The notes below the pieces were generated by a model. The model was not told the origin of the DNA and made no database searches. It was given only the letters and a program-made list of their open reading frames with translations. The position numbers and the translations under genes are program-made. A DNA stretch of 14,879 nucleotides from Clostridiales bacterium (GTDB lineage: Bacteria > Bacillota > Clostridia > Tissierellales > Sedimentibacteraceae): positions 1 through 14,879 of the forward strand of contig DMWH01000260.1 of the NCBI GenBank assembly GCA_003483345.1, written 5' to 3'. Below, one piece after another: positions 1,782 to 14,609 of the stretch; position 1 is the first letter of the stretch; the number at the start of each line of letters is the position of its first letter.

Positions 1782-1817
1782 TATTATATATTACGCATTT
1801 TATTTTTATAATATTCC
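1782..1817 (-). promoter_or_regulatory. Shared-regulon promoter A, for the DUF2325-like gene
   Basis: On the minus strand GGAATA (1817-1812), 16 bases ending in TG, then CGTAATATATAATA (1795-1782). The element lies about 30 bases before the ATG and is one of seven copies with the same spacing. It sits directly behind the preceding gene's terminator. The promoter role is inferred from recurrence, orientation and position. Confidence 0.75.
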
Positions 1818-1823
1818 ACGCAC

Positions 1824-1854
1824 AAAAAAAAGGAGCTGTCTTATTAACAGCCCC
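1824..1854 (-). terminator. Rho-independent terminator after the Ig-like gene
   Basis: On the minus strand GGGGCTGT (1854-1847), a seven-base loop, ACAGCTCC (1839-1832) with one G-T wobble, then eight T (1831-1824). It starts 13 bases past the stop codon at 1868 and separates the Ig-like gene from promoter A. Confidence 0.85.
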
Positions 1855-1867
1855 TTAATTTATTTTT

Positions 1868-2402
1868 TTATTCTATTGTAACTTCTTTTGTCGTGACATC
1901 CTTATTGCTGCTTGTTACTTTTACTGTATAAACTCCGGCACTATTTGCGGTATAGCTGTAGCTTGATTTATAGTTTACTTTCTTCAAGGAAGCACCGTCT
2001 TTTAAGACTTCTATGGTCTTTATTGAAGTTCCGGCTACAGGAGTTGCTGTAATGTCCATCTTCATTCCGTTGACAGTAACTTCTACTGCAGGTTCTTTGT
2101 TAAGCTCTGAAAATGCAGTAATCACTATGTTTGAAGTTATAACTGTATCATCTTTCTTAGCGGTAAATACATAGTTGCCGTCTTTATTTACAGTTACAAC
2201 TGCCGGACTTTCTAATAACGGAGTTTCACCAAAATAAAATTCGTCAAACTCTCCCTGTACGGTCGCCGTAATTTTTACAGTTCCCTTTGATGCGATTTTA
2301 GAATCATCTGCTTCAAGAGTAATGTAGAATTCTTCATTGATGCCTGAAATTTCAAGAGTTACACTCTTTTCATTTCCTTCGTTTAAATTTTTTCACATTC
2401 AT
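1868..2402 (-). pseudogene. Ig-like domain protein interrupted by a one-base frameshift
   Basis: Protein of two beta-rich, Ig-like segments of about 80 residues each; binding target unknown. Only codons from the GTG at 2125 form a standard ORF, yet the same frame is open without a stop back to 2393 and there encodes the first Ig-like segment (SVTLEISG and onward), with no ATG, GTG or TTG in it. The start that fits the ribosome site (AAAGGAG, 2416-2410) is the ATG at 2402, seven bases away, but it reads ten codons and stops. Removing one A from the six-A run (2391-2396 region) joins the two frames into an unbroken 177-residue protein. Neither signal peptide nor anchor is visible. It could be decay, phase variation, slippage or a sequencing error. 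Promoter at 2454-2489, terminator at 1824-1854. Confidence 0.8.
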
Positions 2403-2453
2403 ACACATTCTCCTTTATAATTTTTTCTTTACACAAAAACTTATATCTCTGCA

Positions 2454-2489
2454 TATTATATAATATGCAACTTTCATTAAAATTATTCC
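2454..2489 (-). promoter_or_regulatory. Shared-regulon promoter F, for the Ig-like gene
   Basis: On the minus strand GGAATA (2489-2484), 16 bases ending in TG, then CATATTATATAATA (2467-2454). With two more bases the second block is a perfect 16-base palindrome (CATATTATATAATATG, 2467-2452). A leader of roughly 45 bases follows before the ATG at 2402. Confidence 0.75.
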
Positions 2490-2518
2490 TGTAAAATTTT
2501 GAGCAATTGTTTGCCATA

Positions 2519-2546
2519 TAAAAAAGAGGTATAACGCCTCTTTTAT
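2519..2546 (-). terminator. Rho-independent terminator after the CpaB-like gene
   Basis: AAAAAGAGG (2521-2529) pairs with CCTCTTTT (2538-2544 region) around a short AT-rich loop. On the minus strand the hairpin ends in a T-run. It lies about 12 bases past the stop codon at 2557. Confidence 0.8.
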
Positions 2547-2556
2547 TTAACCTTCA

Positions 2557-3396
2557 TTACTCCAGATTTTCCAGTTCTATTTCGGGAAAATCTCCAGACT
2601 CAGGATCTTTATTGCCTGCAAATACATCTATACTGTCAAATATATTGTATCCTGTACTGTCAACATTTTCAGCTCCGGAGAACCTTCCTATAATCTGAAT
2701 ATCTCCGCTGTAGGACCTTGCTATTATTTCCTCTGCCTGTGGTCCTGTTACAACAACTGTAACTGAAGCCAAATCTCCGTCGCCGGAATTATCCATTGAA
2801 GTTACTTCTTCACCCTTGAAGGACTCAGTATTCAAGCTGAAATCATCTTCCGAAACATTGGATTTTTGTACATAGTCATATCCGTCTTCCGTATTAACTG
2901 ACCAAATAACCACATCTTTCATAAAGATTTTTGAATAAACAAACTGCTGCCCTGTGTCCGGGTTATCAACGGTTGCAATATATACCAAATCTACAACATC
3001 TCCACTTTTAATGTTCCCGGCCAAAGCCCTCTCCATTTCTACGGGGAAAGATACTTTTCTCATTTTGGACAAATCCATCAGCTTCATAGGGTTTAAATCT
3101 TCCTGAGAAGTAACAAAATCAGTCATAACAAACTGTCCTTTTGAAACCTCGGTGGTCACCACTTTGTTAAGAATCAAATCCTTATCCCTTAAGAAGTTTT
3201 TATCAATAGCCCTTGCAGGAATTTCGACAACAGCCAGCTTATCCTTAGTTATCACATCTCCTGTTTTCATAGGTTGATTGAAAACAAATACCTTTGTAGG
3301 ACCTATCTGAGAATTAGTATATGCGTATACCCCGTACAGTACTCCGATAAGCAAAACAAGTTCAATCACAATTATCATTATTCTCTTACGTTTCAT
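2557..3396 (-). CDS. CpaB/RcpC-like SAF-domain protein of a Tad/Flp pilus
   Basis: Probable Flp-pilus assembly factor. In Tad systems CpaB/RcpC is membrane-anchored, exposed outside the cytoplasm and carries a SAF domain. The 279-residue product has a basic N-terminus and one membrane helix (about 7-27). A SAF-like segment follows (about 33-95), containing the typical MKTGDVITKDKL and VSKGQFV turns. The next section (about 112-165) has the FPVE...GNIKSGDVVDLVYI pattern seen after SAF domains in CpaB. The C-terminus is acidic. The ATG at 3396 has AGGAGG nearby. Its own promoter (3420-3455) begins only five bases past the TadZ stop, with no terminator between, so it may also be read through from that operon. 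The family call is by motif only. Confidence 0.85.
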   Translation of the reverse strand: MKRKRIMIIVIELVLLIGVLYGVYAYTNSQIGPTKVFVFNQPMKTGDVITKDKLAVVEIPARAIDKNFLRDKDLILNKVVTTEVSKGQFVMTDFVTSQEDLNPMKLMDLSKMRKVSFPVEMERALAGNIKSGDVVDLVYIATVDNPDTGQQFVYSKIFMKDVVIWSVNTEDGYDYVQKSNVSEDDFSLNTESFKGEEVTSMDNSGDGDLASVTVVVTGPQAEEIIARSYSGDIQIIGRFSGAENVDSTGYNIFDSIDVFAGNKDPESGDFPEIELENLE

Positions 3397-3419
3397 TTAA
3401 ATTTACCTCCTAATATTCA

Positions 3420-3455
3420 TATTATATAATACGCATTTAATTTATTATTTATTCC
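3420..3455 (-). promoter_or_regulatory. Shared-regulon promoter B, for the CpaB-like gene
   Basis: On the minus strand GGAATA (3455-3450), 16 bases ending in TG, then CGTATTATATAATA (3433-3420), the best match to the consensus. It is squeezed between the TadZ stop (3461) and the CpaB-like ribosome site. Confidence 0.8.
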
Positions 3456-3460
3456 ATGCA

Positions 3461-5737
3461 TTATTTGAGGGCTAATATATTTGAAACAATGCTGGAAAAA
3501 ATATAACCTTTCCCTTTCTGCAGAGAGTAGAACATGCCGTCAATATTAAGATTCATAAGCATTGCATAATCCAAAGAAATAGTTATAAAGCTTTCCAATG
3601 GAGATTCAATCCATTCCGCTATATCCTTTAATTTCAGCTTACATTTATCATCATACCTGTTAATTACAAAATAAGCCTTTTCTTTATTAACTGCCTTCTT
3701 CTTAGAGAATGCACAGGCAACGCTGTGAATATCCTGAGTTAAGGTAATATAAAGAATATCGGAATACATATTTCCTTTCAAAAAGGATTCTGTCAAAGAA
3801 TTATTATCACTCTTTATGTCCATTACTATATAGTCATATTTGTTGTCAGCTTTTAAGTCCCTTATAAGAGCCTTTAATTCCTGAGTATTTATCGGTTCTG
3901 CATTTTCGTCAATCAGGTATGTACTTGAAACAGTTAAAAAGTCAAGAAGACCGTGGACATTCTCATTGGCGGATTTGACAATATTTTTGTAAATTCCTTC
4001 CGTATCTTCCGCTGCAGCTGATTTTAAGGCGAATTCAAGACCTTTGTTTACACTGTCAAGTTCATAAAGATAGCTTGAATAAGGATACTTGTCGTCGGTT
4101 TCTATATAAAGAACCTTATATTTTCCCGCTAAAACCGCTGCGGTGTTTAAGGCAATTGTAGTATTCCCTACACCCGATTTGCTTCCTAAGAACGAAATCA
4201 ACTGACACTTGTTGCTTGCCCTTTCGGAAATCTTAACCCTTACTTTTTTATCGTCAATAAAGTCATCCTCATCACTCTTATCCATATTTTCTCTAAAATT
4301 CTGAAGCTTGGTATCTGCACCCGCATCCAGAGAACTTATCTTCTTTGCTTCTTTTTGAAGATTCTCAAGAGTAATGGTGTCAGATTCAACTTTATTTAAG
4401 AGATTTTCATTATTTTTGGCAGCCCTTTCTATTTCAAAAGAAAGATTCAGGATATTCTTCTCTAATTTCATTTTTTCTGCCAGAAGTTCATCTCTCTTGT
4501 CGGCAAGATTGTCATACTCTTCATTCATGCTCTTAAGGTCCGAGCCTAACTTTTCGATTTCCTCTTTAATTTTCTCTATCTCTTCCCTTTTATTTTTGAA
4601 ATTAGAATCAAGTTCGTCTTTTTCCTTAATTTTAGCTTCAATAATTTTGTTAAGCTCATCTCTTACCTTTTCGAGACCTTCATCTACTTCTACCTCTTCG
4701 GAAAGCTTGCTTTCATATTCTCTCTTTAATTTCTCAAACTTTTTGGATTTCTCTTCAACGGCAACCTTTAATTCCTCTATTCCTTCAATCTTTTCTTTAA
4801 CTTCCTTTTCCAAGAAGTCTCTTTCGGCTTCGAGCTTTATTTTATCTTCTTCAGAGATGGAACTTTCCTTAAGCTCCTTTATTTTAAATTCAAGCTCTTC
4901 AACTTCCGCCCTTCTCTTAAGAAGCTCCTGTTCAAGCTCTACCTTCTTATCCTTGTTTGCAATATAGAGATTCCAGTAATTTGCCTTATCTTTCTCAAGC
5001 TTCTGGATTTCCTTTTCCAAAAACTCTTTCTTGGTCTTAAGGGAAACCACTTCATTTTCAAGGGAATTTTTAGTTGCTTCAAGGGTTGTTCCCTTGTCTT
5101 TCAACTCTTTTATTTTATTTTCTTTCTCCTTAATCAAATCCTTAAGCCTGTTAATTTCTTTTTCGGTATTAGCAAGAAGAATTTCCTTGTTTTGAGCTTC
5201 CTTCTCATAAGGTTCAACAGCAGTTTTTATAACCTTATCCTGAGACTTGTCTTTAAAAAGCCTCTTTAATAATCCCTTGCCTTCCTTCAATTCCTTTTCT
5301 TCCTCTTCTTCATTGGGACGATAGGTAAAAGGAAGGGTAGTTATATTAAACTTCCCGATATCCTTTAAGGTTCTCGGTGTTTTTATAATATTAACCATGG
5401 CGGCAAGCTTTAACTTTTTACCGGACAAAATATCATAAATACCATAGCTTACCAAAGTTGCAATCATATTGTTCCCGTCTTCTTCAGTCTCAGCGAAAAA
5501 GACAACCCTTACGGCAGGATACTGAGTTCTTATCTCGAAAATAATATCAAGGATATTTTCATTTCCAAGTATATTTTCTCTTATAACCACAACATCCGGC
5601 CTTGTCTCTTCAATTTTCTTTAAAATTCCGCTTTTGTAGGTAACGACTCCTACAACATTCAAGCCTTCGCTTTTTAAAGCATCCTGCAATATTTCTTCTG
5701 TCTTCTTGTGACCGATTGCAAACAAAACATTTTTCAT
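3461..5737 (-). CDS. TadZ/CpaE-like ATPase with a very long coiled coil
   Basis: Probable pilus-localising ATPase of the TadZ/CpaE branch of the ParA/MinD family. From the ATG at 5737 it is 758 residues. It begins with a receiver-like domain (about 1-115) starting MKNVLFAIG and a strand pattern like CpaE pseudo-receivers. An acidic/basic linker is followed by an unbroken Lys/Glu coiled coil (about 185-470), then a ParA-like domain. The P-loop (about 518-527) reads GSKSGVGNTT; the usual GK is GN, a change common in CpaE/TadZ. A Walker B-like strand reads DYIVMDIKSD. Most CpaE/TadZ proteins lack so long a coil. A TTG at 5770 gives a longer frame, but AGGAGG (5755-5750) favours 5737. It is translationally linked to the gene before it. 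Confidence 0.88.
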   Translation of the reverse strand: MKNVLFAIGHKKTEEILQDALKSEGLNVVGVVTYKSGILKKIEETRPDVVVIRENILGNENILDIIFEIRTQYPAVRVVFFAETEEDGNNMIATLVSYGIYDILSGKKLKLAAMVNIIKTPRTLKDIGKFNITTLPFTYRPNEEEEEKELKEGKGLLKRLFKDKSQDKVIKTAVEPYEKEAQNKEILLANTEKEINRLKDLIKEKENKIKELKDKGTTLEATKNSLENEVVSLKTKKEFLEKEIQKLEKDKANYWNLYIANKDKKVELEQELLKRRAEVEELEFKIKELKESSISEEDKIKLEAERDFLEKEVKEKIEGIEELKVAVEEKSKKFEKLKREYESKLSEEVEVDEGLEKVRDELNKIIEAKIKEKDELDSNFKNKREEIEKIKEEIEKLGSDLKSMNEEYDNLADKRDELLAEKMKLEKNILNLSFEIERAAKNNENLLNKVESDTITLENLQKEAKKISSLDAGADTKLQNFRENMDKSDEDDFIDDKKVRVKISERASNKCQLISFLGSKSGVGNTTIALNTAAVLAGKYKVLYIETDDKYPYSSYLYELDSVNKGLEFALKSAAAEDTEGIYKNIVKSANENVHGLLDFLTVSSTYLIDENAEPINTQELKALIRDLKADNKYDYIVMDIKSDNNSLTESFLKGNMYSDILYITLTQDIHSVACAFSKKKAVNKEKAYFVINRYDDKCKLKLKDIAEWIESPLESFITISLDYAMLMNLNIDGMFYSLQKGKGYIFSSIVSNILALK

Positions 5738-5753
5738 TTGTTTTTTTATCCTC

Positions 5754-7043
5754 CTAAATTGATCTTTCAAATACTCTTGATGTTAAAGAATAATCCGTAA
5801 AATGGAATATTGAGCCCAGAGAATCATACTGATACAGGGCTTCGTAGAACTGCATATTCATTATTCTTTTTCTGGTTGAGAAATATATATTGTCAGAAGG
5901 CACTATTCCGAATGCCTTTGATGCTTTATAGAACTCCGTTTCCTTATTCTCTTCCAAAATAATAATGTATTTTAGAGGTCTCTTGAATTTATTTTCAAAG
6001 AAAACGGAAGTCTGTTTTATGTAGGAAATCTTTTTAAACAAAGACAGGGGGCTTCCCACATTTATGTCAATGACAAATTCCTGAGGAGTCTTATCAACAA
6101 CCAAGATTTTCTTTAAGTTATTAAGCTTTCTTGCGTACAGGTCAAAGGCAACCCTGCCGAGCTCACTTGCAAGCCTGTCGCCGGAAGAAAGAATAAATCC
6201 GCAGGACCTCATCATCATACTTTTGAAATCAGGAATTATTTCTTTATTATACGGAGAATCAGGAATTAATTTTTTAAAGATTATGTCAAGAAGTTCATCC
6301 TGACCCGCTGCATAAAAGTCAAAATCCTTGTCTATTATGTCTCCCAGTTCGTTGTAAATTATTGTTTTTATCCTGTCTGCTTTTATCTCCGGATTTTTTA
6401 CATTACCGATTATAAACAGTATTTTAATGTCCTGTTCCCTCTGGAAGTATTCATCGGAATTATAGAACCTTCTGTAATTGGTCCATTTCCTGTTAAGCTG
6501 TCTTGTAGTTTCGGTTCCCATATCCATTTCCAAAAACAAATCATAGGAACCTATTCTTATCATTCCATCCGGTCTTATCATTGTGTATTTACTTAAATAC
6601 TTTTCGTCATAATAAGTCCACTGAAGATCCTTCTCTAAGGCTCTTTTTCTGAACTCAAGGACAAAGGTGTTCAAATAGATTTGATGCTTTATCAATTTTG
6701 CATCAAGCCGAAGGTCTTTATAATTGTATATGCCAAGGGCTGTTTTCTTGCCGGCTCTTAAATATGCTTCAACCGGAAGATTTAAATAATTTCTTAAAAG
6801 TCCTATGCCGTTTGTGGTTAAAAATATCGCCGGATATTCTTCTCCATATCCTACCTTTTCTATGATTTTGTACTTCATAAATTTTCTTACTCTTCTCATG
6901 ACATAATCCCTTGATTTGCCTTCCAAGGAATAAAACATTTCATACATTAAATTTTCATCTAAGCATCGTAAAAGATATATGGACCTTAAAACTTCCTTGT
7001 CTATAGCGGTTAAGGAATCAATAAAATCTACTTGAAAATACAT
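5754..7043 (-). CDS. Replication-relaxation-like winged-helix/PD-(D/E)XK-like protein
   Basis: Resembles the replication-relaxation family, found on plasmids and integrative elements; its biochemical role is poorly defined. The 429-residue product starts with a winged-helix-like region (about 8-90: LTAIDKEVLRSIYLLRCL, then a wing reaching IFLTTNGIGLLR). A nuclease-like core follows (about 110-195) with RPDG (D159), LEMDMGTE (E172, D174, E178) and K186 in NRKWTNYRRF, an arrangement resembling PD-(D/E)XK enzymes. The ATG at 7043 is seven bases from AAAGGAGG (7058-7051); the TTG at 7049 is one base away and unlikely. It is first in an operon with the TadZ-like gene: its stop lies within that gene's ribosome site. 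Whether it cuts DNA is unknown. Confidence 0.8.
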   Translation of the reverse strand: MYFQVDFIDSLTAIDKEVLRSIYLLRCLDENLMYEMFYSLEGKSRDYVMRRVRKFMKYKIIEKVGYGEEYPAIFLTTNGIGLLRNYLNLPVEAYLRAGKKTALGIYNYKDLRLDAKLIKHQIYLNTFVLEFRKRALEKDLQWTYYDEKYLSKYTMIRPDGMIRIGSYDLFLEMDMGTETTRQLNRKWTNYRRFYNSDEYFQREQDIKILFIIGNVKNPEIKADRIKTIIYNELGDIIDKDFDFYAAGQDELLDIIFKKLIPDSPYNKEIIPDFKSMMMRSCGFILSSGDRLASELGRVAFDLYARKLNNLKKILVVDKTPQEFVIDINVGSPLSLFKKISYIKQTSVFFENKFKRPLKYIIILEENKETEFYKASKAFGIVPSDNIYFSTRKRIMNMQFYEALYQYDSLGSIFHFTDYSLTSRVFERSI

Positions 7044-7057
7044 ACTCAAACCTCCTT

Positions 7058-7093
7058 TAATATATATTACGTATATTTTTTATATTATATTCC
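7058..7093 (-). promoter_or_regulatory. Shared-regulon promoter C-minus, for the replication-relaxation/TadZ operon
   Basis: On the minus strand GGAATA (7093-7088), 16 bases, then CGTAATATATATTA (7071-7058). This is the only copy without TG before the second block. The block runs straight into AAAGGAGG (7058-7051), so the leader RNA must be very short. Confidence 0.75.
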
Positions 7094-7107
7094 ATAAATT
7101 ATTTATT

Positions 7108-7143
7108 GGAATATTTTAATCACAATCTGCATATTATAGAATA
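7108..7143 (+). promoter_or_regulatory. Shared-regulon promoter C-plus, for the membrane protein/TadE-like operon
   Basis: GGAATA (7108-7113), 16 bases ending in TG, then CATATTATAGAATA (7130-7143). It points away from promoter C-minus, the two GGAATA blocks being 14 bases apart. The ribosome site AAAGGAGAG and the ATG at 7168 follow. Confidence 0.75.
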
Positions 7144-7167
7144 AGTACATAAGAAAGGAGAGTAATA

Positions 7168-7605
7168 ATGGATTTGACAAAGGAAGAAATCATCCGTTTA
7201 ATCAAAAAGGAAAAACTTTTAATCACAATCTTATTTTTTATATCGACATGCTTTGGCAGTGCTTTAATCTTTTTGTCCGACAATCAGATTTTTCTTCTCG
7301 TAGGGCTTTTCTGCTACATGCTTGCTGTTCTGTGTCTTCCTAAAATCAACGGTGCAAAACAGGACATACAAGATACAAAGAATAATATTTTTGATAATTT
7401 TTCCGGAAAAGTTGAAGATATTTTCCCTGAAAAAGAAAACAAAGAAACCGGCAGATGGATAGTTTTAATTCAGGACAATGAAGGCAAGAAAACTTACGAG
7501 TATTTATTAAGAAATAAGATTAATTTGGCTGAAGGCGAACAAATAAGCATTTATACAACAAAGTATACCAAGATACCTACAAAAATCGAAAGGGTTGTTG
7601 AATAA
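7168..7605 (+). CDS. Small two-helix membrane protein, function unknown
   Basis: The 145-residue product is not recognised. It has a charged N-terminus, two adjacent hydrophobic segments (about 17-36 and 40-58) that should form a membrane hairpin, then a hydrophilic C-terminal part (about 90-145) with alternating strands (GRWIVLIQDNEGKKTYEYLL, then GEQISIYTTKYTKIPTKI). The tail could be a small beta-barrel as in NfeD-like proteins, but this is only a shape resemblance. With the helices placed in the membrane, the tail would probably be cytoplasmic. The start ATG follows AAAGGAGAG at seven to eight bases. Its stop overlaps the start of the TadE-like gene by one base (TAATG), so the two are translationally coupled and may act together. 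Confidence 0.8.
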   Translation: MDLTKEEIIRLIKKEKLLITILFFISTCFGSALIFLSDNQIFLLVGLFCYMLAVLCLPKINGAKQDIQDTKNNIFDNFSGKVEDIFPEKENKETGRWIVLIQDNEGKKTYEYLLRNKINLAEGEQISIYTTKYTKIPTKIERVVE

Positions 7606-8102
7606 TGAAAAAATATTTATGGAAAAACAAAAGAGGTTATTCCGCCGTTAATGTAATAATGTGCGTTTTAGTTATACTGCTTACTTTCAGCCTTCTGATA
7701 GAAATAACTTTTTTAGGTAAAAGGTACAGTTATATGGCACAAACAACCACTTATGTATCAAGGATAATAGGTGAACAGGGCGGGATACAAACAAGTACAC
7801 CCAGCGGATACATGGACCCTTCACTTTATACTAAAAGCTCACGGCTATATTCCACTTTAAACAGCGGTTTCTCAAAGGCGGGATTTGATACTTGGGCAGT
7901 TTATATTGACGATGTAAAACTGAAAAGCAGCACAAGACTCAGCTTCCCTGAAAAAACCCTCATACCCATTAGAATAAGGGCGGGATTTTACCCGATATTT
8001 AAGTTTAACAGCCGGTCAAACAGACTCGTTTATATTGAAACGGAGAGGAACGTATACAGCAGCTTTACCCCAAGAACAAGCGATATTGATTTAATTAAGT
8101 AA
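7605..8102 (+). CDS. TadE-like/DUF4320-like pseudopilin
   Basis: Probable minor pilin or pseudopilin of the Tad-like system. The 165-residue product has a short basic leader ending in KNKRG, then YSAVNVIM and one long hydrophobic helix (about 16-38). A hydrophilic extracytoplasmic domain of about 125 residues follows. This is the layout of TadE/TadF and of DUF4320 proteins in Clostridia. Cleavage after G11 would be the prepilin-peptidase type site; the residue five places into the mature part is Asn, not the usual Glu. Only a weak AGGG lies upstream of the ATG, which overlaps the preceding stop by one base, so translation probably depends on the upstream gene. The exact family is uncertain; membrane anchoring and pilin-like topology are clearer. 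Confidence 0.75.
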   Translation: MKKYLWKNKRGYSAVNVIMCVLVILLTFSLLIEITFLGKRYSYMAQTTTYVSRIIGEQGGIQTSTPSGYMDPSLYTKSSRLYSTLNSGFSKAGFDTWAVYIDDVKLKSSTRLSFPEKTLIPIRIRAGFYPIFKFNSRSNRLVYIETERNVYSSFTPRTSDIDLIK

Positions 8103-8115
8103 AAGGAGAAATTCA

Positions 8116-8214
8116 ATAGGGTTAAATATTATAACAATTTTTAATCTAGGTATAATTTCCAGTAATAAAGCAGATAAATCTGACAATAAAAGCAAGAAAA
8201 CAGAAAAAGAATAA
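8116..8214 (+). other. Small ORF with good ribosome site but ATA in place of a start codon
   Basis: Possible 32-residue peptide gene that has lost its start. AAAAGGAG (8101-8108) lies seven bases before an ATA at 8116. From there the frame is open to the TAA at 8212-8214. It would encode a hydrophobic N-terminal stretch (GLNIITIFNLGIIS) and a Lys/Ser/Asn-rich tail ending KTEKE. No ATG, GTG or TTG is available in that frame after the previous in-frame stop at 8092. The overlapping +1 frame beyond 8205 also reads a Lys-rich tail, so the end may be shifted too. No homologue is recognised. It may be a decayed gene, a rare AUA start, or chance. Confidence 0.35.
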
Positions 8215-8241
8215 AAAGAATGAGAATTCTTCAAAGAAACC

Positions 8242-8276
8242 AAAAAAAACCCGCCATTATTAAAAGCGGGTTTTTT
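8242..8276. terminator. Two-way rho-independent terminator between convergent operons
   Basis: AAAAAACCCGC (ending 8254) pairs with GCGGGTTTTTT (8266-8276) around an 11-base AT-rich loop, with A-run and T-run on opposite sides. It serves both the plus-strand TadE-like operon and the minus-strand operon ending at 8288. Confidence 0.9.
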
Positions 8277-8287
8277 ATTGGTCTTTA

Positions 8288-9796
8288 TTATAAAATATAA
8301 ATATCGCTTATGTTAAGTTTTACCCTGTCTGTAAGTACTCCCTGAATGTCATATATATACAGGATTTCGTCATATGCCCCGTAAACACATTTGGCGTTAT
8401 AAACAGCCAGCTTCGGAATCGATACGTCCAGTGAAACTTCGTAGCTTAACCTGAAGTCTTTGTTTACATAAACAAGCTTATCCTTGTTGTCCCTGAAACT
8501 TTGCTTAAGCAAGAATTCCCCGTCTTTTTCGTAGACAATCTTAGTATCTTTTGCATAGTTTAATTCGGCCCAGCCATATGAAACCAAGTTTTTATCAAAC
8601 TTATGGAGAATAGACTTATTTACCGTTAAGCCAAATTTGTTTGCTATGTAGAGATAGTCTCCGATAATTTCTATATCGGTTGTTTTATCTCCTAAGTATA
8701 CATACATCTGCTCTTTTGTCTTAAGGTCTATCTTAAATATGGACTTATTAGCTGCATAATACAGAAAATTCCCGTCAACCGTCCAGTCTTCCAAGTCGTA
8801 ATCAACTGCTACCCTTTTATATCCTTCTCCGTCAAGAATATATATATTGGAATCATCCTTTACGGTAAAATAGAATATCCCGTTTTCAAACTGATAATCC
8901 TTAACCACAATATCCTTGTTGTCAGCTATAAAGGAAAGCTCAAGCTGATTGTCTTTTACAAAAATCTGATACAGCTTTGACCTTACATTGTCATATACAA
9001 AGAATCCCTTGTCGGTAAAGGAATAGTTATAATCGGGAATTAAAGAATCTTTAGCCGTTTCTATATCCCACGTAATATTTTCAATCAATGCTTGGTCAGA
9101 AATCTCTTCGGCTTCGGGAAGACCGCTTTCAGAAGTTCTTCCTCCAAAAATATTCCCCACCTCAGTTTTGGAGGTATTTTTTGAAAATGTTCCCTTTTTA
9201 GCTAAAAACAGCCTTACATCCCCTACATAAATAGGATGAAGCTCCTGTGGATCATTGATTTCCCTTCCCCACTTAAGAAGCTTAAACTCGGGAACATCGC
9301 TTATTAATTTTCTTTGAACCTTTATCCAGCAATCTCCTTTAATAATGTTTATAGCTACAATATCATAGCCTTCTTTTTCCCCAACCACTTCTACGCTTCT
9401 GTCGCTAAAAAACTTGCCGCCTGTATCCTTCACAACATCGTTGGCCTGATCCGGTTTGGTATCTTCAACCTTTCCCGGCTCTTCCTCAGCTTCCGGGCTT
9501 GATTTAATAATATTTAATTCTGCAGGTTCGTAGTCTTTTTCATATATTTTGTTTAAATTCAGTGAAAAGAGCTGTTTTCTGGACGCTATATTGACTATGG
9601 ACACAACTCCGTCCTGATTTCCCGCAAGCATATCGTTTTTCATGGAAAACTCCTTAACCGCTGCGGGTTCACTGCCTTTTGGCATTTTCTTTACGGCAAC
9701 AAAAACAACAATAAGAAATAATAATAAGACTGCCATAAAGATTTTTCTTTTAATTAATTTTTTGAAAATTTCTTTTACATTACTCAAATTACTCAC
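8288..9796 (-). CDS. Membrane-anchored protein with beta-propeller-like repeats
   Basis: Function unknown. The 502-residue product has a short basic N-terminus and one hydrophobic helix (about 19-36), so most of it should lie outside the cytoplasm. A charged linker (about 95-125) leads to a beta-rich region. From about 255 onward there are repeated units ending in Tyr-rich strands (GFFVYDNV, IFYFTVKD, FLYYAANK, DYLYIANK, EILYIYDI), like the blades of a propeller of the DUF5050 or WD/PQQ type. It could be a docking or sensing part of the surface machine. The GTG at 9796 overlaps the preceding stop by eight bases and lies one base from GGAG (9801-9798). A TTG at 9787, ten bases away, may be the true start. 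It is last in the operon starting at 11786. Confidence 0.8.
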   Translation of the reverse strand: MSNLSNVKEIFKKLIKRKIFMAVLLLFLIVVFVAVKKMPKGSEPAAVKEFSMKNDMLAGNQDGVVSIVNIASRKQLFSLNLNKIYEKDYEPAELNIIKSSPEAEEEPGKVEDTKPDQANDVVKDTGGKFFSDRSVEVVGEKEGYDIVAINIIKGDCWIKVQRKLISDVPEFKLLKWGREINDPQELHPIYVGDVRLFLAKKGTFSKNTSKTEVGNIFGGRTSESGLPEAEEISDQALIENITWDIETAKDSLIPDYNYSFTDKGFFVYDNVRSKLYQIFVKDNQLELSFIADNKDIVVKDYQFENGIFYFTVKDDSNIYILDGEGYKRVAVDYDLEDWTVDGNFLYYAANKSIFKIDLKTKEQMYVYLGDKTTDIEIIGDYLYIANKFGLTVNKSILHKFDKNLVSYGWAELNYAKDTKIVYEKDGEFLLKQSFRDNKDKLVYVNKDFRLSYEVSLDVSIPKLAVYNAKCVYGAYDEILYIYDIQGVLTDRVKLNISDIYIL

Positions 9797-10775
9797 TCTC
9801 CTCTAAATCATTAATTATTTTGGGCAAAAACAAAGATGATTTAACAATTATTAAAGTTTTTTTATTGGGATCATATTTCATAAAGCTCTTATCATCAAAC
9901 CCGTTTTTAATTCTAATGTCTGTTAAAAGCCTGAACTGAGTGCTGTTGGTGTTTCTGTAATATATATCTGCAACCTCAAGTGCCATTTTGTCGTTTTCGG
10001 CAAGCAGAATTACTACCGGATTTATGCTGAAATACTTTTCAATATATCCTTCCGACATAAGAACATTTAATTTCTCAGATTTCTTTTGAATACCGGAAGG
10101 AATATCGTACTTTCTCACAACCTCCAGTATGAAACCTCTCGGAGTGTGACCACTCATAATTTCAAATTTTGCATTTGTCTGAACATCCCTCTTCCCTATG
10201 TTGAAGTTTGCAAAGGATTCAAAATACCTTATATTTTCGGGAACGGAATTTAAAAGAGCCAGATAAAACTGAGTTGTTGTAAGATATTTGGTTATATATT
10301 CGACTCCCCTTACCGCATTTGTGGATGTCCAGCTTAACACGTCTTCGGTACCGTAATGACTTAAAATATACTTGCCGCCGAAATCAAGACTGTAACATTT
10401 CAACGCATCTTCCGGTATTTCATTCAGGGGATATTTTGAAATAATGAACATATTTATTATTCTTTGATGAAGAAACATTTCAAGGGTTTTGTCAATATCT
10501 TCCAAGGGGAACCCCTGAGAGCTTAAATATGACTTAATTTGATTTTCAGTAGCAAAGCAGACTTTCAGTATAAACTTTAATAAAGAAAGCTGCAGATCTG
10601 CATTCTTTTCATTTCTTCTGTCCATGAAGTTTTTTATGTAGACATGCTCGGGTTTTACTCCCTGCATATTAAACTTATGATGCCAAGTCTGTTTAAAGTC
10701 GTAGTTAAAACTAAAATTACCGTCTTCACTTTTTTTAATATATAGACTTAATTCTGCCATAATTTGTGTGTGCAA
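9789..10775 (-). CDS. Winged-helix protein, possible degenerate replication-relaxation relative
   Basis: The 328-residue product is not recognised with certainty. After an N-terminal extension, residues about 60-115 have the helix spacing of a winged helix (LQLSLLKFILKVCF, then ATENQIKSYLSSQ). The middle (about 200-240) reads KFEIMSG, GFILEVVRKYD and then KKSEKLNVLM, recalling the nuclease-like core of the protein at 5754-7043. There is no RPDG-type Asp, so it is probably inactive if related. The link is inference. The start is the TTG at 10775: an in-frame TAG lies just upstream and AAAGGAG (10794-10788) is 12 bases away; an ATG at 10760 is 27 bases away. It is middle in the operon, after the S1 protein and a hairpin at 10822-10842, and overlaps the next gene. 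Confidence 0.75.
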   Translation of the reverse strand: MHTQIMAELSLYIKKSEDGNFSFNYDFKQTWHHKFNMQGVKPEHVYIKNFMDRRNEKNADLQLSLLKFILKVCFATENQIKSYLSSQGFPLEDIDKTLEMFLHQRIINMFIISKYPLNEIPEDALKCYSLDFGGKYILSHYGTEDVLSWTSTNAVRGVEYITKYLTTTQFYLALLNSVPENIRYFESFANFNIGKRDVQTNAKFEIMSGHTPRGFILEVVRKYDIPSGIQKKSEKLNVLMSEGYIEKYFSINPVVILLAENDKMALEVADIYYRNTNSTQFRLLTDIRIKNGFDDKSFMKYDPNKKTLIIVKSSLFLPKIINDLEESE

Positions 10776-10821
10776 TTTAAATTGCTACTCCTTTCTATTT
10801 TTTATATATATATATACTGCA

Positions 10822-10842
10822 GGGGCTGTTCTTAACAGCCCC
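10822..10842 (-). other. Strong intercistronic hairpin without a T-run
   Basis: GGGGCTGTT (10822-10830) pairs perfectly with AACAGCCCC (10834-10842) around three bases. It lies 12 bases past the S1 gene's stop. On the minus strand it is followed by an alternating TATA tract, not a T-run, so it may be a leaky terminator, a processing site or an mRNA stabiliser. Its stem closely matches that of the terminator at 1824-1854. Confidence 0.6.
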
Positions 10843-10853
10843 GACAAGTCTAT

Positions 10854-11786
10854 TTAAAATGCCAAAAATTTAATCAACCTTCCCCTGATTCTTAAATTAC
10901 CCTTTTCATCAAATATCTGGGTAAGCTTAATTACGGCGTTGGAGCCTACGAAAACTTCTTCATCTCTCGGAAGAGGACATAAAGCATCAACTCCGGGCAG
11001 AAGCCTTACATAGAATCCCCAGTCCTTTACTGCGGTTACAGAACCTTTTATAACCTGATCCACTTCAAAATTGGACAGCTCGGACATTGAAGATTTCTTA
11101 AACATTTTAGGAACCTTAAATGCAAGCTTGCCGGTGTTGTTAACCCTAAGAAGCTTAACCTTTAAGGTATCTCCAACCTTAAATACATCTCCGACCGAAA
11201 TGTGATCATCAGAGAAATTTTCATTTTTAAGAATTCCCGCAACCCCGTGAATTTCCACATAAGCTCCAAAGTATGTAAGCTTTGAAACTTTAGCAACAAT
11301 TTCATCTTCCATTGAAAGAGTGGAAACTATCTTGCTTTTGATTATCCTTTGAGCTTCCTTACGAGAACAAATCAATCTGTCATTCTTCTCATCGTAACTT
11401 TTAATTACTATGGGTATTTCCCTGCCTATGAAGCTTATCAGAGATTTCCAGTGAATATCATCATCCGCTTCGTCAAGAGGCACCATACCATTTGTGTTGT
11501 TCAATGTAAACAGCATTACATCACCGTATTCTTCATCCCTTTTGGCTCCGGTTACTTCAACCTGAAATATTGTTTCTTCGGCGATATTTTTGTTATAAAT
11601 CTGAGCTTTTAAAAAGCCCTGCTTTTTAACCGGAGATGCGTTTTTTCTGTAGCCTTTCTTTTTCGGTTTATACTCCGGCTTAACCTCTTTGCCTTCGGCT
11701 TTTAAATCCTTAATTTCCTCTTTTATTTCTTCCATTATTTCTTCCTCTCCTATTTTTTCTTTGTTTTCAATCACGTTTTCTTGCAT
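10854..11786 (-). CDS. Triple S1-domain RNA-binding protein
   Basis: Likely binds single-stranded RNA through S1 (OB-fold) domains, as in ribosomal protein S1; the target is unknown. The 310-residue product starts with a Glu/Lys-rich tail (about 1-55). Three S1-like domains follow: about 70-142 (divergent), 160-225 (YFGAYVEIHGVAGIL, VGDTLKVKLLRVN) and 240-307 (WGFYVRLLPGVDALC). It has three domains, versus six in proteobacterial ribosomal S1. The ATG at 11786 lies seven bases from AAAGGAG. It leads an operon with the winged-helix and membrane-anchored genes and is driven by promoter 11839-11874. An accessory copy could adjust translation or RNA stability of the module; that is inference. Confidence 0.85.
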   Translation of the reverse strand: MQENVIENKEKIGEEEIMEEIKEEIKDLKAEGKEVKPEYKPKKKGYRKNASPVKKQGFLKAQIYNKNIAEETIFQVEVTGAKRDEEYGDVMLFTLNNTNGMVPLDEADDDIHWKSLISFIGREIPIVIKSYDEKNDRLICSRKEAQRIIKSKIVSTLSMEDEIVAKVSKLTYFGAYVEIHGVAGILKNENFSDDHISVGDVFKVGDTLKVKLLRVNNTGKLAFKVPKMFKKSSMSELSNFEVDQVIKGSVTAVKDWGFYVRLLPGVDALCPLPRDEEVFVGSNAVIKLTQIFDEKGNLRIRGRLIKFLAF

Positions 11787-11838
11787 TTCGCTTCTCCTTT
11801 CAAATTAGTTTTAAAAATGAACATAAACAGTCTATCTA

Positions 11839-11874
11839 TTATATATAATACGCAATTCATTAGTTATATATTCC
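11839..11874 (-). promoter_or_regulatory. Shared-regulon promoter D, for the S1/winged-helix/membrane operon
   Basis: On the minus strand GGAATA (11874-11869), 16 bases ending in TG, then CGTATTATATATAA (11852-11839). A leader of roughly 45 bases precedes the ATG at 11786. Confidence 0.75.
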
Positions 11875-11921
11875 AACATATTTTTGCATTTAAGACAAAG
11901 ACCGTTTCAGATTATTTTGAC

Positions 11922-11957
11922 AGAATATTTTTTTATGATATTGTGTATTATATAAGG
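11922..11957 (+). promoter_or_regulatory. Shared-regulon promoter E, for the Cys-rich/RecD2 operon
   Basis: AGAATA (11922-11927), 16 bases ending in TG, then TGTATTATATAAGG (11944-11957). It is the weakest copy, with one change in the first block. TTGACA overlaps it at 11917-11922, but no housekeeping -10 hexamer lies 16-18 bases downstream. It is divergent from promoter D. Confidence 0.65.
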
Positions 11958-12383: not shown

Positions 12384-14609
12384 ATGGAAAAATTAAATGT
12401 TATAATCAAGAAAATTAAATACTGCGATGAGAAAAACAAACTGTATATATTTGACGGCTTAACTTCGCTTAAGAAAAAGACTCCATCGGGGAAAACAAGA
12501 AAGGTTAAAACAAAGGTAACTTTCAAGGGTAATTTTATGTCCATTTATATTGAAGACGATATAAATGTCGTAGGCTACTGGATTGACAATGAAAAGTACG
12601 GCAGACAGTTCATAGTCGTATCCTACGAAAAAAATATCCCCCAGACAATTAAAGGGATTCAGACCTTCCTGAAACAAATTGTAAGAGGAATCGGAGAGAA
12701 AAGAGCAGAGGCAATAACAAATGCATACGGGGAAGATTCTTTAAATATTATCGCTAAAAACATTAATGCCCTTGATATAATACCCGGGATAACAAAAGAT
12801 CAAAAGGAAGAGATATGGCTTGCCATAGCCCAGAATATCGAATTTGAAAAGCTCCTTGCCTTCATGCAGTTAAATGACCTTGATTATACCTTGGCCATAA
12901 AAATATACAACAGGTTCAAAGAGGATTCCATCATAAGAATTAAAGATAATCCTTATGTCCTCTATATGGAAAATATAGTTCCCTTCTCTGTGTGCGACCA
13001 GATTGCATGTAACCTTAATGTAACAGCCAACTCTTTAACAAGACTCGTTGCAGCCCTTTATAGTTTTATACAGGGAGATGTTACTTCAAATGGGAACCTG
13101 TATACCACGGTAAGCTTCATCTATAAAAAGTTTAATAAGTATCTTGAGAAAAAAGGAAGATTTGCCGATTCTTACGAATTTTCCGAAGAAGAAATAGAAA
13201 AGGGCTTAAAATACCTTGAAAAAGACGAAAGAGTAGTATTCTGCGAAAATAAAAAGGGAAGAATTTTATATTTAAAAAATAACTTATATATTGAAAATAA
13301 AATTGTGGAGTTAATATCGAGGAAAATGAACTCCTCTATCCACAGATACGGGTACCCTGAAAAGGAAATAGAAAACTTCCTTGAAGGTTATGAAAAATCC
13401 TCCGGCATAAAAATGGCTCCGGAACAAAAGGAAGCTGTAATATCAGCTCTTAAGAATACTATCAGTATAATAACCGGAGGCCCCGGAACAGGGAAAACAA
13501 AAACTATGGCCGCCATAATTCACTGTATTAAAACCCTGTCGCCGGATGCAACAATTCACCTGTGCTCTCCTACAGGAAAAGCTGCAAAGAGAATGAACGA
13601 AATGTCCGGCATGGATGCAAGCACTATTCACAGGCTTGTCAAAATATTTAATGCCAACGATAGAATAGAAAGCAACATTATCAGTGGGGATTTTATAATC
13701 ATAGATGAGGCATCCATGATTGATGCTTATGTCTTTTACAGGTTATTGTCCTCTCTTGATGAAGATATAAGAATTGTCATAATAGGAGATTACAACCAGT
13801 TGCCGTCCGTAGGGGCAGGGCTTATTTTAAGAGATTTGATAGATTCCAATACAATAAAAACCACAAGGCTTAAGGAAATTTTCAGACAGGCAAAAAACAG
13901 TAAAATTGTTACTAACTCAAACATCATAATCAATACGGGACTGACAGCAGGCGTAACATTATCAAGGAAATGCTCCGGAGACTTTTTCTTTATTGAAGAG
14001 TCGTCTACACATGAGATACAAAGAAAAATTATCATGGTTATGAAAAAACTTATGACAAATATGAAAGTTCCCCTTTCGGATATTCAGGTTCTAAGTGCGG
14101 TTAAGGGAACATCTCTCGGGACGGAAGCATTAAACAGGCTTATACAGAATGAATTCAACAATAACACAGATTTTATAGAATCCGGGGAAATGCAGTTTAA
14201 CAGCAAAGATAAGGTGATTCATATTGTAAATAATTACGACCTTAATGTTTTTAACGGAGAAACAGGGGTTATAGGGACTTTAAATTACAACGAATCAAAT
14301 ATGCTTACTATTGATTATCCGGACAAAAGCATTGACTACCCGGCTTGGTCCCTTGAAGAACTTGAACTTGCCTATGCTATTACGGTCCATAAAAGTCAAG
14401 GAAGTGAGTTCCCTATTGTTATAATGCCCATTCACAGTATCGTATCAAGAGGATTATATAGAAACTTAATTTATACCGCAATAACAAGAGCAAAGTCTAA
14501 AATGATATTCATAGGCGATAAGGAAGTATTCAAGGAAACAGTTTTACTGGTTAAGGGGAATATTAGAAACTCAATGGTAAAAGAAAAGCTTATAAAAGAA
14601 TTTGAATAA
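12384..14609 (+). CDS. recD2: RecD2-type SF1B DNA helicase
   Basis: ATP-driven 5'-3' DNA helicase of the RecD2/TraA-like group, acting without RecBC in repair or element processing. The 741-residue product has an N-terminal OB-like region (about 1-90), then helix-hairpin-helix segments (about 98-140, with VRGIGEKRAEAI and IPGITKDQKEEI). Helicase motifs follow: P-loop GGPGTGKT (365-372), Ia CSPTGKAAKRM (394-404), II DEAS (441-444), III GDYNQLPSVGAG (468-479), an arginine-containing FRQA (500-503) and VI VHKSQGSEF (668-676), then YTAITRAK (697-704). All key residues are present. Length is in the usual RecD2 range (about 715-800). Its ribosome site (AGAAGG) is modest. Whether this replaces or adds to a chromosomal copy cannot be told here. 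Confidence 0.93.
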   Translation: MEKLNVIIKKIKYCDEKNKLYIFDGLTSLKKKTPSGKTRKVKTKVTFKGNFMSIYIEDDINVVGYWIDNEKYGRQFIVVSYEKNIPQTIKGIQTFLKQIVRGIGEKRAEAITNAYGEDSLNIIAKNINALDIIPGITKDQKEEIWLAIAQNIEFEKLLAFMQLNDLDYTLAIKIYNRFKEDSIIRIKDNPYVLYMENIVPFSVCDQIACNLNVTANSLTRLVAALYSFIQGDVTSNGNLYTTVSFIYKKFNKYLEKKGRFADSYEFSEEEIEKGLKYLEKDERVVFCENKKGRILYLKNNLYIENKIVELISRKMNSSIHRYGYPEKEIENFLEGYEKSSGIKMAPEQKEAVISALKNTISIITGGPGTGKTKTMAAIIHCIKTLSPDATIHLCSPTGKAAKRMNEMSGMDASTIHRLVKIFNANDRIESNIISGDFIIIDEASMIDAYVFYRLLSSLDEDIRIVIIGDYNQLPSVGAGLILRDLIDSNTIKTTRLKEIFRQAKNSKIVTNSNIIINTGLTAGVTLSRKCSGDFFFIEESSTHEIQRKIIMVMKKLMTNMKVPLSDIQVLSAVKGTSLGTEALNRLIQNEFNNNTDFIESGEMQFNSKDKVIHIVNNYDLNVFNGETGVIGTLNYNESNMLTIDYPDKSIDYPAWSLEELELAYAITVHKSQGSEFPIVIMPIHSIVSRGLYRNLIYTAITRAKSKMIFIGDKEVFKETVLLVKGNIRNSMVKEKLIKEFE

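Follow-up and report, generated by a model that had tools for sequence, protein, structure and literature searches.

What reads the promoter-like sequence that recurs ahead of gene after gene in contig DMWH01000260.1, a 14,879-nucleotide stretch (hereafter the window) of a Clostridiales bacterium of the family Sedimentibacteraceae (assembly GCA_003483345.1)? An earlier note, made from the letters of the window, described seven start regions on both strands in which GGAATA (once AGAATA) is followed after exactly 16 bases by a YRTAWTATA block. It suggested that one dedicated sigma factor or activator switches on the module. The window is contig C79 of genome bin G000 (2.26 Mb, 300 contigs, 82% complete), and its motif is confined to nine contigs of that bin, which probably are one mobile element, a conjugative plasmid. 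A sigma factor gene of the SigE/SigK kind lies on one of them. Judged from sequence, this element-encoded sigma probably reads the GGAATA-N16 promoters and drives much of the element.

Seven sites with one spacing

The window was searched on both strands with the pattern RGAATA-N16-YRTAWTATA. All seven claimed sites are exact and lie on the strands given for them, and six of the seven have TG ahead of the second block. Distances in the following list run to the start codon of the first gene; ORF stands for open reading frame and RBS for ribosome-binding site.

1787–1817, minus strand: promoter-like site GGAATA-N16-CGTAATATA, upstream of a 561-residue ORF (77–1762), 33 nt to an RBS-backed ATG
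2459–2489, minus strand: promoter-like site GGAATA-N16-CATATTATA, upstream of the gene (about 1868–2400) for a protein that is Ig-like by eye
3425–3455, minus strand: promoter-like site upstream of a cpaB/rcpC-like gene, 28 nt to ATG
7063–7093, minus strand: promoter-like site upstream of the Replic_Relax and TadZ-like operon, 19 nt to ATG
7108–7138, plus strand: divergent promoter-like site upstream of ORFs of 145 and 165 residues, 29 nt to ATG
11844–11874, minus strand: promoter-like site upstream of an S1-domain gene, 57 nt to ATG
11922–11952, plus strand: divergent promoter-like site (AGAATA, TGTA) upstream of a 124-residue ORF and a RecD2 helicase gene, 33 nt to ATG

With up to two mismatches allowed, the window contains ten matches versus 1.5 expected, a number reached by none of 200 shuffles. 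When gaps of 8 to 25 bases are tried with the exact pattern, seven matches fall at 16, one at 23 and none elsewhere.

The motif is confined to one set of contigs

The exact motif occurs 40 times in G000, on nine of the 300 contigs (C164, 12 copies; C79, 7; C266, 5; C284, 4; C135, C196 and C273, 3 each; C274, 2; C3, 1), which total 99,288 bases. The reversed control pattern occurs once. A relaxed scan for the form with TG and CGTA, allowing up to two mismatches, returns 60 matches, 59 of which are on the nine motif contigs and one on C127. Exactly three mismatches add 31 further matches, three of them on the nine contigs, and this level is background because the reversed control also gives 31 in all.

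A second bin of the same genus, G015, carries the same element: all 32 of its relaxed matches are on eight element contigs, and the stretches common to the two elements are 98.8–99.8% identical. Its contig C190 is identical to JAAYPY010000018.1 (‘Tissierellia bacterium isolate AS22ysBPME_296’). Across the 25 other genomes of the family the first pattern stays at background, with 23 matches in total (0–5 each; reversed control, 16), none of which, by eye, has TG ahead of CRTA. The viral contigs contain no relatives of the Replic_Relax protein or of the element sigma; the exact motif is present in five of them, one match each, which we take as chance. A search for wider relatives covered 391 genomes of the class, sampled from a larger group, and returned G000 and one weak match of 19.7 bits only.

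The genome-wide scan that the earlier note called for thus places the motif on one contig set, and not at random places throughout the genome. The motif is clean enough to act as a sequence tag, singling out nine contigs among 300 in a metagenomic bin.

Promoter properties of the motif

On the nine contigs, GGAATA-gap-CRTAWTATA is found at a gap of 16 bases in 35 exact and 22 one-mismatch sites; the other gaps from 10 to 23 bases give no exact sites and 0–4 with one mismatch. In 40 first-order Markov versions of these contigs the mean is 0.025 sites and the maximum 1, versus the 59 observed in the relaxed scan. All but two of the 59 sites are outside ORFs of at least 90 residues, and 53 are followed within 400 nt by an RBS-backed start, at a median distance of 51 nt. 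In gaps between co-directional genes, 24 sites are oriented with the genes and four are opposed; the remaining sites are in divergent gaps (21), in convergent gaps (5) and at contig edges (5). Such spacing, placement and orientation are those of promoters.

In a dyad count blind to the motif, GAAT-17-CGTA comes out on top, being present in 29 of 74 upstream regions, and with other gene calls the motif is again first in both bins, in 36 of 68 upstream regions of G000 and 17 of 47 of G015. Rough ORF calls on the nine contigs give 53 likely operon starts, 27 of which carry a site, and 19 tight gaps, none of which does. The assertion that every operon has such a promoter is therefore right for the window, with its seven visible start regions, and fails element-wide.

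A sigma factor of the SigE/SigK kind on the richest motif contig

The earlier note had proposed to look for an alternative sigma factor gene on the same element. A sigma-70-family gene is indeed encoded on C164, the contig with the most motif sites, and is preceded by a shorter ORF.

C164, 9442–10074, minus strand: sigma factor gene of the SigE/SigK kind, 210 residues (Sigma70_r2 51.7 bits, r4 34.7 bits)
C164, 10164–10451, minus strand: 95-residue ORF resembling sigma region 2 only, just upstream of the sigma gene

There are nine region-2 and eleven region-4 matches to sigma-family domains in G000, and the C164 pair is the only one on a motif contig. The best NCBIfam models for the protein are SigE and SigK, both well below their cut-offs (SigE, NF006158, 113.6 of 339 bits and TIGR02835, 109.6 of 348.6 bits; SigK, 101.3 of 252 bits). 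The protein passes the broad TIGR02937 ‘sigma70-ECF’ superfamily model (82.8 bits, cut-off 42.9), though SigE and SigK outscore it. The earlier note had left the choice between an extracytoplasmic function (ECF) and a sporulation sigma; these scores favour the sporulation type and disfavour ECF. Near-copies of the protein in the protein database, P0001 and P0002, have 12 and 45 member sequences, and its next relatives there, P0003 and P0004, are 64% and 57% identical.

The residues of this sigma can be compared with the bases of its presumed promoters. Two papers, on B. subtilis and C. difficile, state that Gln217 of SigE recognizes the T in the fourth position of the -35 element, and that SigK has Arg and C in these places (PMC517825; PMC3789822); SigE promoters have a -35 with ATA and a -10 of CATA type (PMC3789822). 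The SigK spacing, published as 15 ± 1 between a five-base and a ten-base block, can be fitted onto the GGAATA-N16 geometry. Column counts for the motif were taken from the 59-site two-mismatch set, which also leans to the pattern; in the exact-pattern set the invariant columns follow from the pattern itself and carry no weight. All 59 sites keep the T at position 4 of the -35 block, and in the alignment Gln occupies the -35-reading position of the element sigma and of six plasmid sigmas described below. The sigma thus predicts the observed -35. The second block begins with C in 58 of the 59 sites, its second base is R in all 59, and in 52 it departs from CATA by having G there. The matching recognition region reads CMRKQIL in the element sigma versus CIENEIL in SigE, and the G may be linked to this change.

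The sigma cluster also contains a thioredoxin-like gene (Thioredoxin_2, 41.4 bits). Upstream of the cluster is TTGACA-16-TATAAT, a 12/12 match to the housekeeping promoter and the sole one of that quality among 14 matches of at least 11 on the nine contigs. The 95-residue ORF is 45% identical to sigma region 2 over 77 residues (Pfam region 2, 16.4 bits, below cut-off), and its database relatives are two proteins that are 99–100% identical. It may be a recent partial duplicate or a regulator; standing alone ahead of the sigma gene, this region-2 paralog may tune the sigma. Immediately downstream of the sigma gene, a GGAATAT borders on an assembly gap of 20 N, which may hide a motif site for the CpaB/T2SSE genes that follow. 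Elsewhere on C164, a gene for an M50 family peptidase (3452–4243, minus strand) has a divergent pair of motif sites upstream. Some sporulation sigmas are processed by M50 proteases.

The element and the megaplasmids of Bacilli

The element has a gene set related to that of the megaplasmids of Bacilli that carry Tad and type IV secretion system (T4SS) genes (pSC2 of Paenibacillus polymyxa, pGspE55-1 of Geobacillus and others). Common to the element, pSC2 and the P. thiaminolyticus and Geobacillus plasmids are Replic_Relax, an AAA ATPase beside CpaB, T2SSE, VirD4, VirB4/DUF87, topoisomerase IA, RecD2, an S1 protein and a sigma with a thioredoxin-like gene nearby. The Geobacillus plasmid resembles the element in three more respects: DNA polymerase III alpha, CHC2 primase and a MoxR/VWA pair, encoded in the element by C135 and C164.

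Replic_Relax and Tad-type genes are on C79 and C164. VirD4 and VirB4 were not found in the G000 bin (82% complete) and are present on motif contigs of G015, where they are 56% and 60% identical to proteins of the P. thiaminolyticus plasmid. The two bins therefore probably complement each other, each with a part of one conjugative element, and over both of them the defining traits of this megaplasmid family, Replic_Relax, Tad and T4SS together, are present. All motif contigs would belong to this one element, C164 and C79 being joined through the motif and synteny. Its contigs also carry genes for DNA polymerase III alpha, a CHC2 primase-like protein, a B12-type ribonucleotide reductase, thymidylate synthase, UvrD and PhoH. 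With its polymerase, primase and nucleotide genes, the element could largely supply its own replication.

Relatives of the Replic_Relax protein are found in seven plasmid records, which by length are six distinct plasmids (two records, of P. polymyxa, are equal). All seven records also carry a SigE/K-like sigma (22 records have a sigma match overall). Six plasmid regions were read (the complete Geobacillus plasmid, 241 kb of the 360-kb P. thiaminolyticus plasmid and 40–48 kb of each of four others), and in all six the sigma sits within the Tad/T4SS gene cluster. A midpoint-rooted tree of 20 sigmas (nine of the element and plasmids, seven of the 21 SigE found and four SigK-like) splits the nine element and plasmid sigmas from the chromosomal SigE and SigK-like rows at 100/98, and the element sigma does not group with chromosomal SigE among these 20 rows. 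These findings suggest that conjugative plasmids have long carried relatives of sporulation sigmas. We give even chances to a scenario in which a branch of the SigE/SigK family was already established on conjugative megaplasmids when the plasmids of Bacilli and Tissierellia parted. In the lineage of the window that branch would have evolved into a private transcription system whose -10 had shifted to CGTA; separately from host promoters, it would serve the element in replication, conjugation and nucleotide supply.

Which factor reads the promoters

The reading we favour, in which the element sigma serves its own promoters, can be put as follows. The element is a putative conjugative plasmid with Tad pilus and T4SS genes, a DNA polymerase III alpha gene and a primase-like gene. 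Host RNA polymerase carrying the element sigma would read a -35 of GGAATA and a -10 of (TG)CGTAWTATA, 16 bases apart, and about half of the element operons would be transcribed in this way. The targets would include cpaB, the Replic_Relax/TadZ-like operon, RecD2, DNA polymerase III alpha and ribonucleotide reductase. The host main sigma may switch on the element sigma via the housekeeping-type promoter, and the element sigma would then switch on the rest. This order is suggested because the sigma cluster has such a promoter and no motif copy, and it is the weakest step of the proposal. The dedicated sigma factor or activator that the earlier note envisaged is supported by the confinement of the motif, by the sigma gene on a motif contig and by its best models, SigE and SigK.

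Several observations weigh against this proposal. Of the 53 likely operon starts, 26 lack a site, and no site with up to two mismatches is found upstream of the sigma cluster on its strand. Among 40 Markov versions of the 99 kb, five also contain a 12/12 housekeeping promoter, and matches of at least 11 average 5.1 (largest 9); the sigma region contains six promoter-like matches versus 9.5 in shuffles. The 12/12 match is therefore only mildly unusual, the cascade from host to element sigma is a suggestion, and our confidence is slightly lowered. In G015, an incomplete bin, the sigma was not found at E ≤ 1e-20, and the eight motif contigs of that bin include no counterpart of C164. In the sigma tree long branches meet, which calls for caution about the join, and support for the plasmid rows taken alone is only 81/79.

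The Bacilli plasmids weigh in the same direction. The six regions lack the GGAATA-N16 promoter class: they contain no site at up to two mismatches, and relaxed two-block counts, dyads and a SigE-type pattern did not find the motif there either. The pairing of sigma and motif is thus not repeated in a relative. In four of the Bacilli megaplasmids, 21 of 115 upstream regions contain a different word, TTGACTAT, versus 0.7 on average in the control (largest 2). This word resembles the sigma-A -35 and is possibly the operator of a plasmid-wide regulator. The Geobacillus plasmid offers no more than a weak class, TTTT-N12-TGTA, found in 13 of its 93 upstream regions; this could be the promoter of that plasmid's own sigma.

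Three other explanations were weighed. The element might be wired into the sporulation programme of its host, its promoters being read by a host sigma of the SigE or SigG type. The general plan, a -35 with ATA and a -10 of CATA type, does match SigE promoters, and a SigE-like match on the chromosome (E ≤ 1e-20) exists in 21 of the 25 other genomes of the family. Against this, chromosomal sites are at the background level given above, with one of the 60 relaxed matches in G000 off the motif contigs. The second -10 base is mostly G and not A, and G000 (again, an 82% complete bin) has no SigE-like gene at E ≤ 1e-20 besides that of the element. We regard this explanation as unlikely. Much the same low probability attaches to the housekeeping sigma as the reader of a TATTAT or TAATAT -10, with GGAATA as the half-site of an element-encoded activator at a fixed spacing. 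One or the other hexamer is contained in the second block, the constant spacing would suit an activator as well, and the four related plasmids with TTGACTAT carry a sigma-A-like -35 word. In a standard extended -10, TG is one base before the hexamer; here it is two bases ahead of TATTAT, so this is no standard extended -10. Nor does sigma-A need the C and R that begin nearly every second block, and a sigma with the matching -35-reading residue is encoded on a motif contig.

That the motif is some other dispersed DNA site, for replication, partition or silencing, is very improbable. It is dispersed over all nine contigs, and the five sites between convergent ORFs and the four opposed to co-directional genes would fit such a role. 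The two-block form, the 24 to 4 orientation with the genes, the narrow distance to start codons and the absence of sites from the 19 tight intra-operon gaps all speak for promoters.

Genes of the window

Beyond the promoter-like sites, the window encodes the following recognizable proteins.

2557–3396, minus strand: CpaB/RcpC-like Tad pilus protein (Pfam RcpC 34.7 bits, SAF 30.6 bits)
3461–5770, minus strand: TadZ/CpaE-like protein with a coiled coil and an AAA_31 domain (38.9 bits)
5754–7034, minus strand: replication-relaxation family (Replic_Relax) protein, a plasmid-family marker (Pfam PF13814, 58.1 bits)
10854–11786, minus strand: protein with two S1 RNA-binding stretches; an S1 gene is annotated in four Bacilli plasmid regions too
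12384–14609, plus strand: RecD2-like helicase; a RecD-like gene is likewise annotated in four Bacilli plasmid regions

The CpaB/RcpC-like protein scores 60.1 bits with NCBIfam pilus_cpaB, under the cut-off of 71. The product of 3461–5770 is named TadZ because its gene adjoins cpaB, as in the plasmids. The Replic_Relax protein is 31–37% identical to proteins of the seven Bacilli plasmid records; closer relatives of it, P0010–P0014, reach 47–66% identity. In the Ig-like gene on the minus strand (1868–2400), the RBS-backed start meets a stop after about 12 codons and the long body is in another frame. The same disruption below site 2459–2489 is present in G015; it may be a frameshift site, a non-standard start or a decayed gene. 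An inverted repeat, GGGGCTGTTCTTAACAGCCCC, is seen by eye at 10822–10842 between the S1 gene and a 328-residue ORF, in a gap that has no motif site.

Comparison with known systems

To our knowledge, few mobile elements run much of their own expression via one element-encoded sigma and one private promoter. Among the matches listed in a search of open-licence PMC articles (titles and abstract openings), neither the promoter class nor a SigE-like sigma on these megaplasmids is described. By its sequence, the sigma–promoter pair looks orthogonal to the host.

The element sigma has relatives in phages. It matches PHROGs phrog_351 at 106.3 bits, and 26 phage records contain relatives of it, with at most 37% identity among the 20 listed. 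The element may be a phage-plasmid; no phage structural gene is present among the proteins scanned with Pfam (with PHROGs, on ten proteins only). Closer to hand are the mother-cell sigmas SigE and SigK, which are the nearest NCBIfam models and share the -10 of CATA type; SigE also shares the -35 ATA and the Gln that reads it. Unlike them, the element sigma scores far below their cut-offs, is on a separate branch of the tree and has a -10 with mostly G as the second base.

The best counterpart of the whole arrangement is SigN (ZpdN) of the B. subtilis plasmid pBS32. SigN is described as a plasmid-encoded sigma with a predominantly plasmid-restricted regulon, weakly homologous to ECF sigmas and autoactivating, and its gene has SigA-type promoters (PMC6751061). 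The element resembles pBS32 in having, in G000, a sigma-70-family gene on what appears to be the same element, and in a consensus promoter with many copies on the element that is rare on the chromosome. For the LexA-repressed housekeeping promoter that is a further trait of this kind of regulon, the element sigma cluster has a candidate in its TTGACA-16-TATAAT. Unlike SigN, the element sigma is nearest to SigE/SigK and has no site of its own type ahead of its gene, so that autoactivation is not predicted, and unlike the pBS32 system the element has Tad and T4SS genes. The arrangement would thus be of the same kind as SigN/pBS32, with a different sigma family and on a different element.

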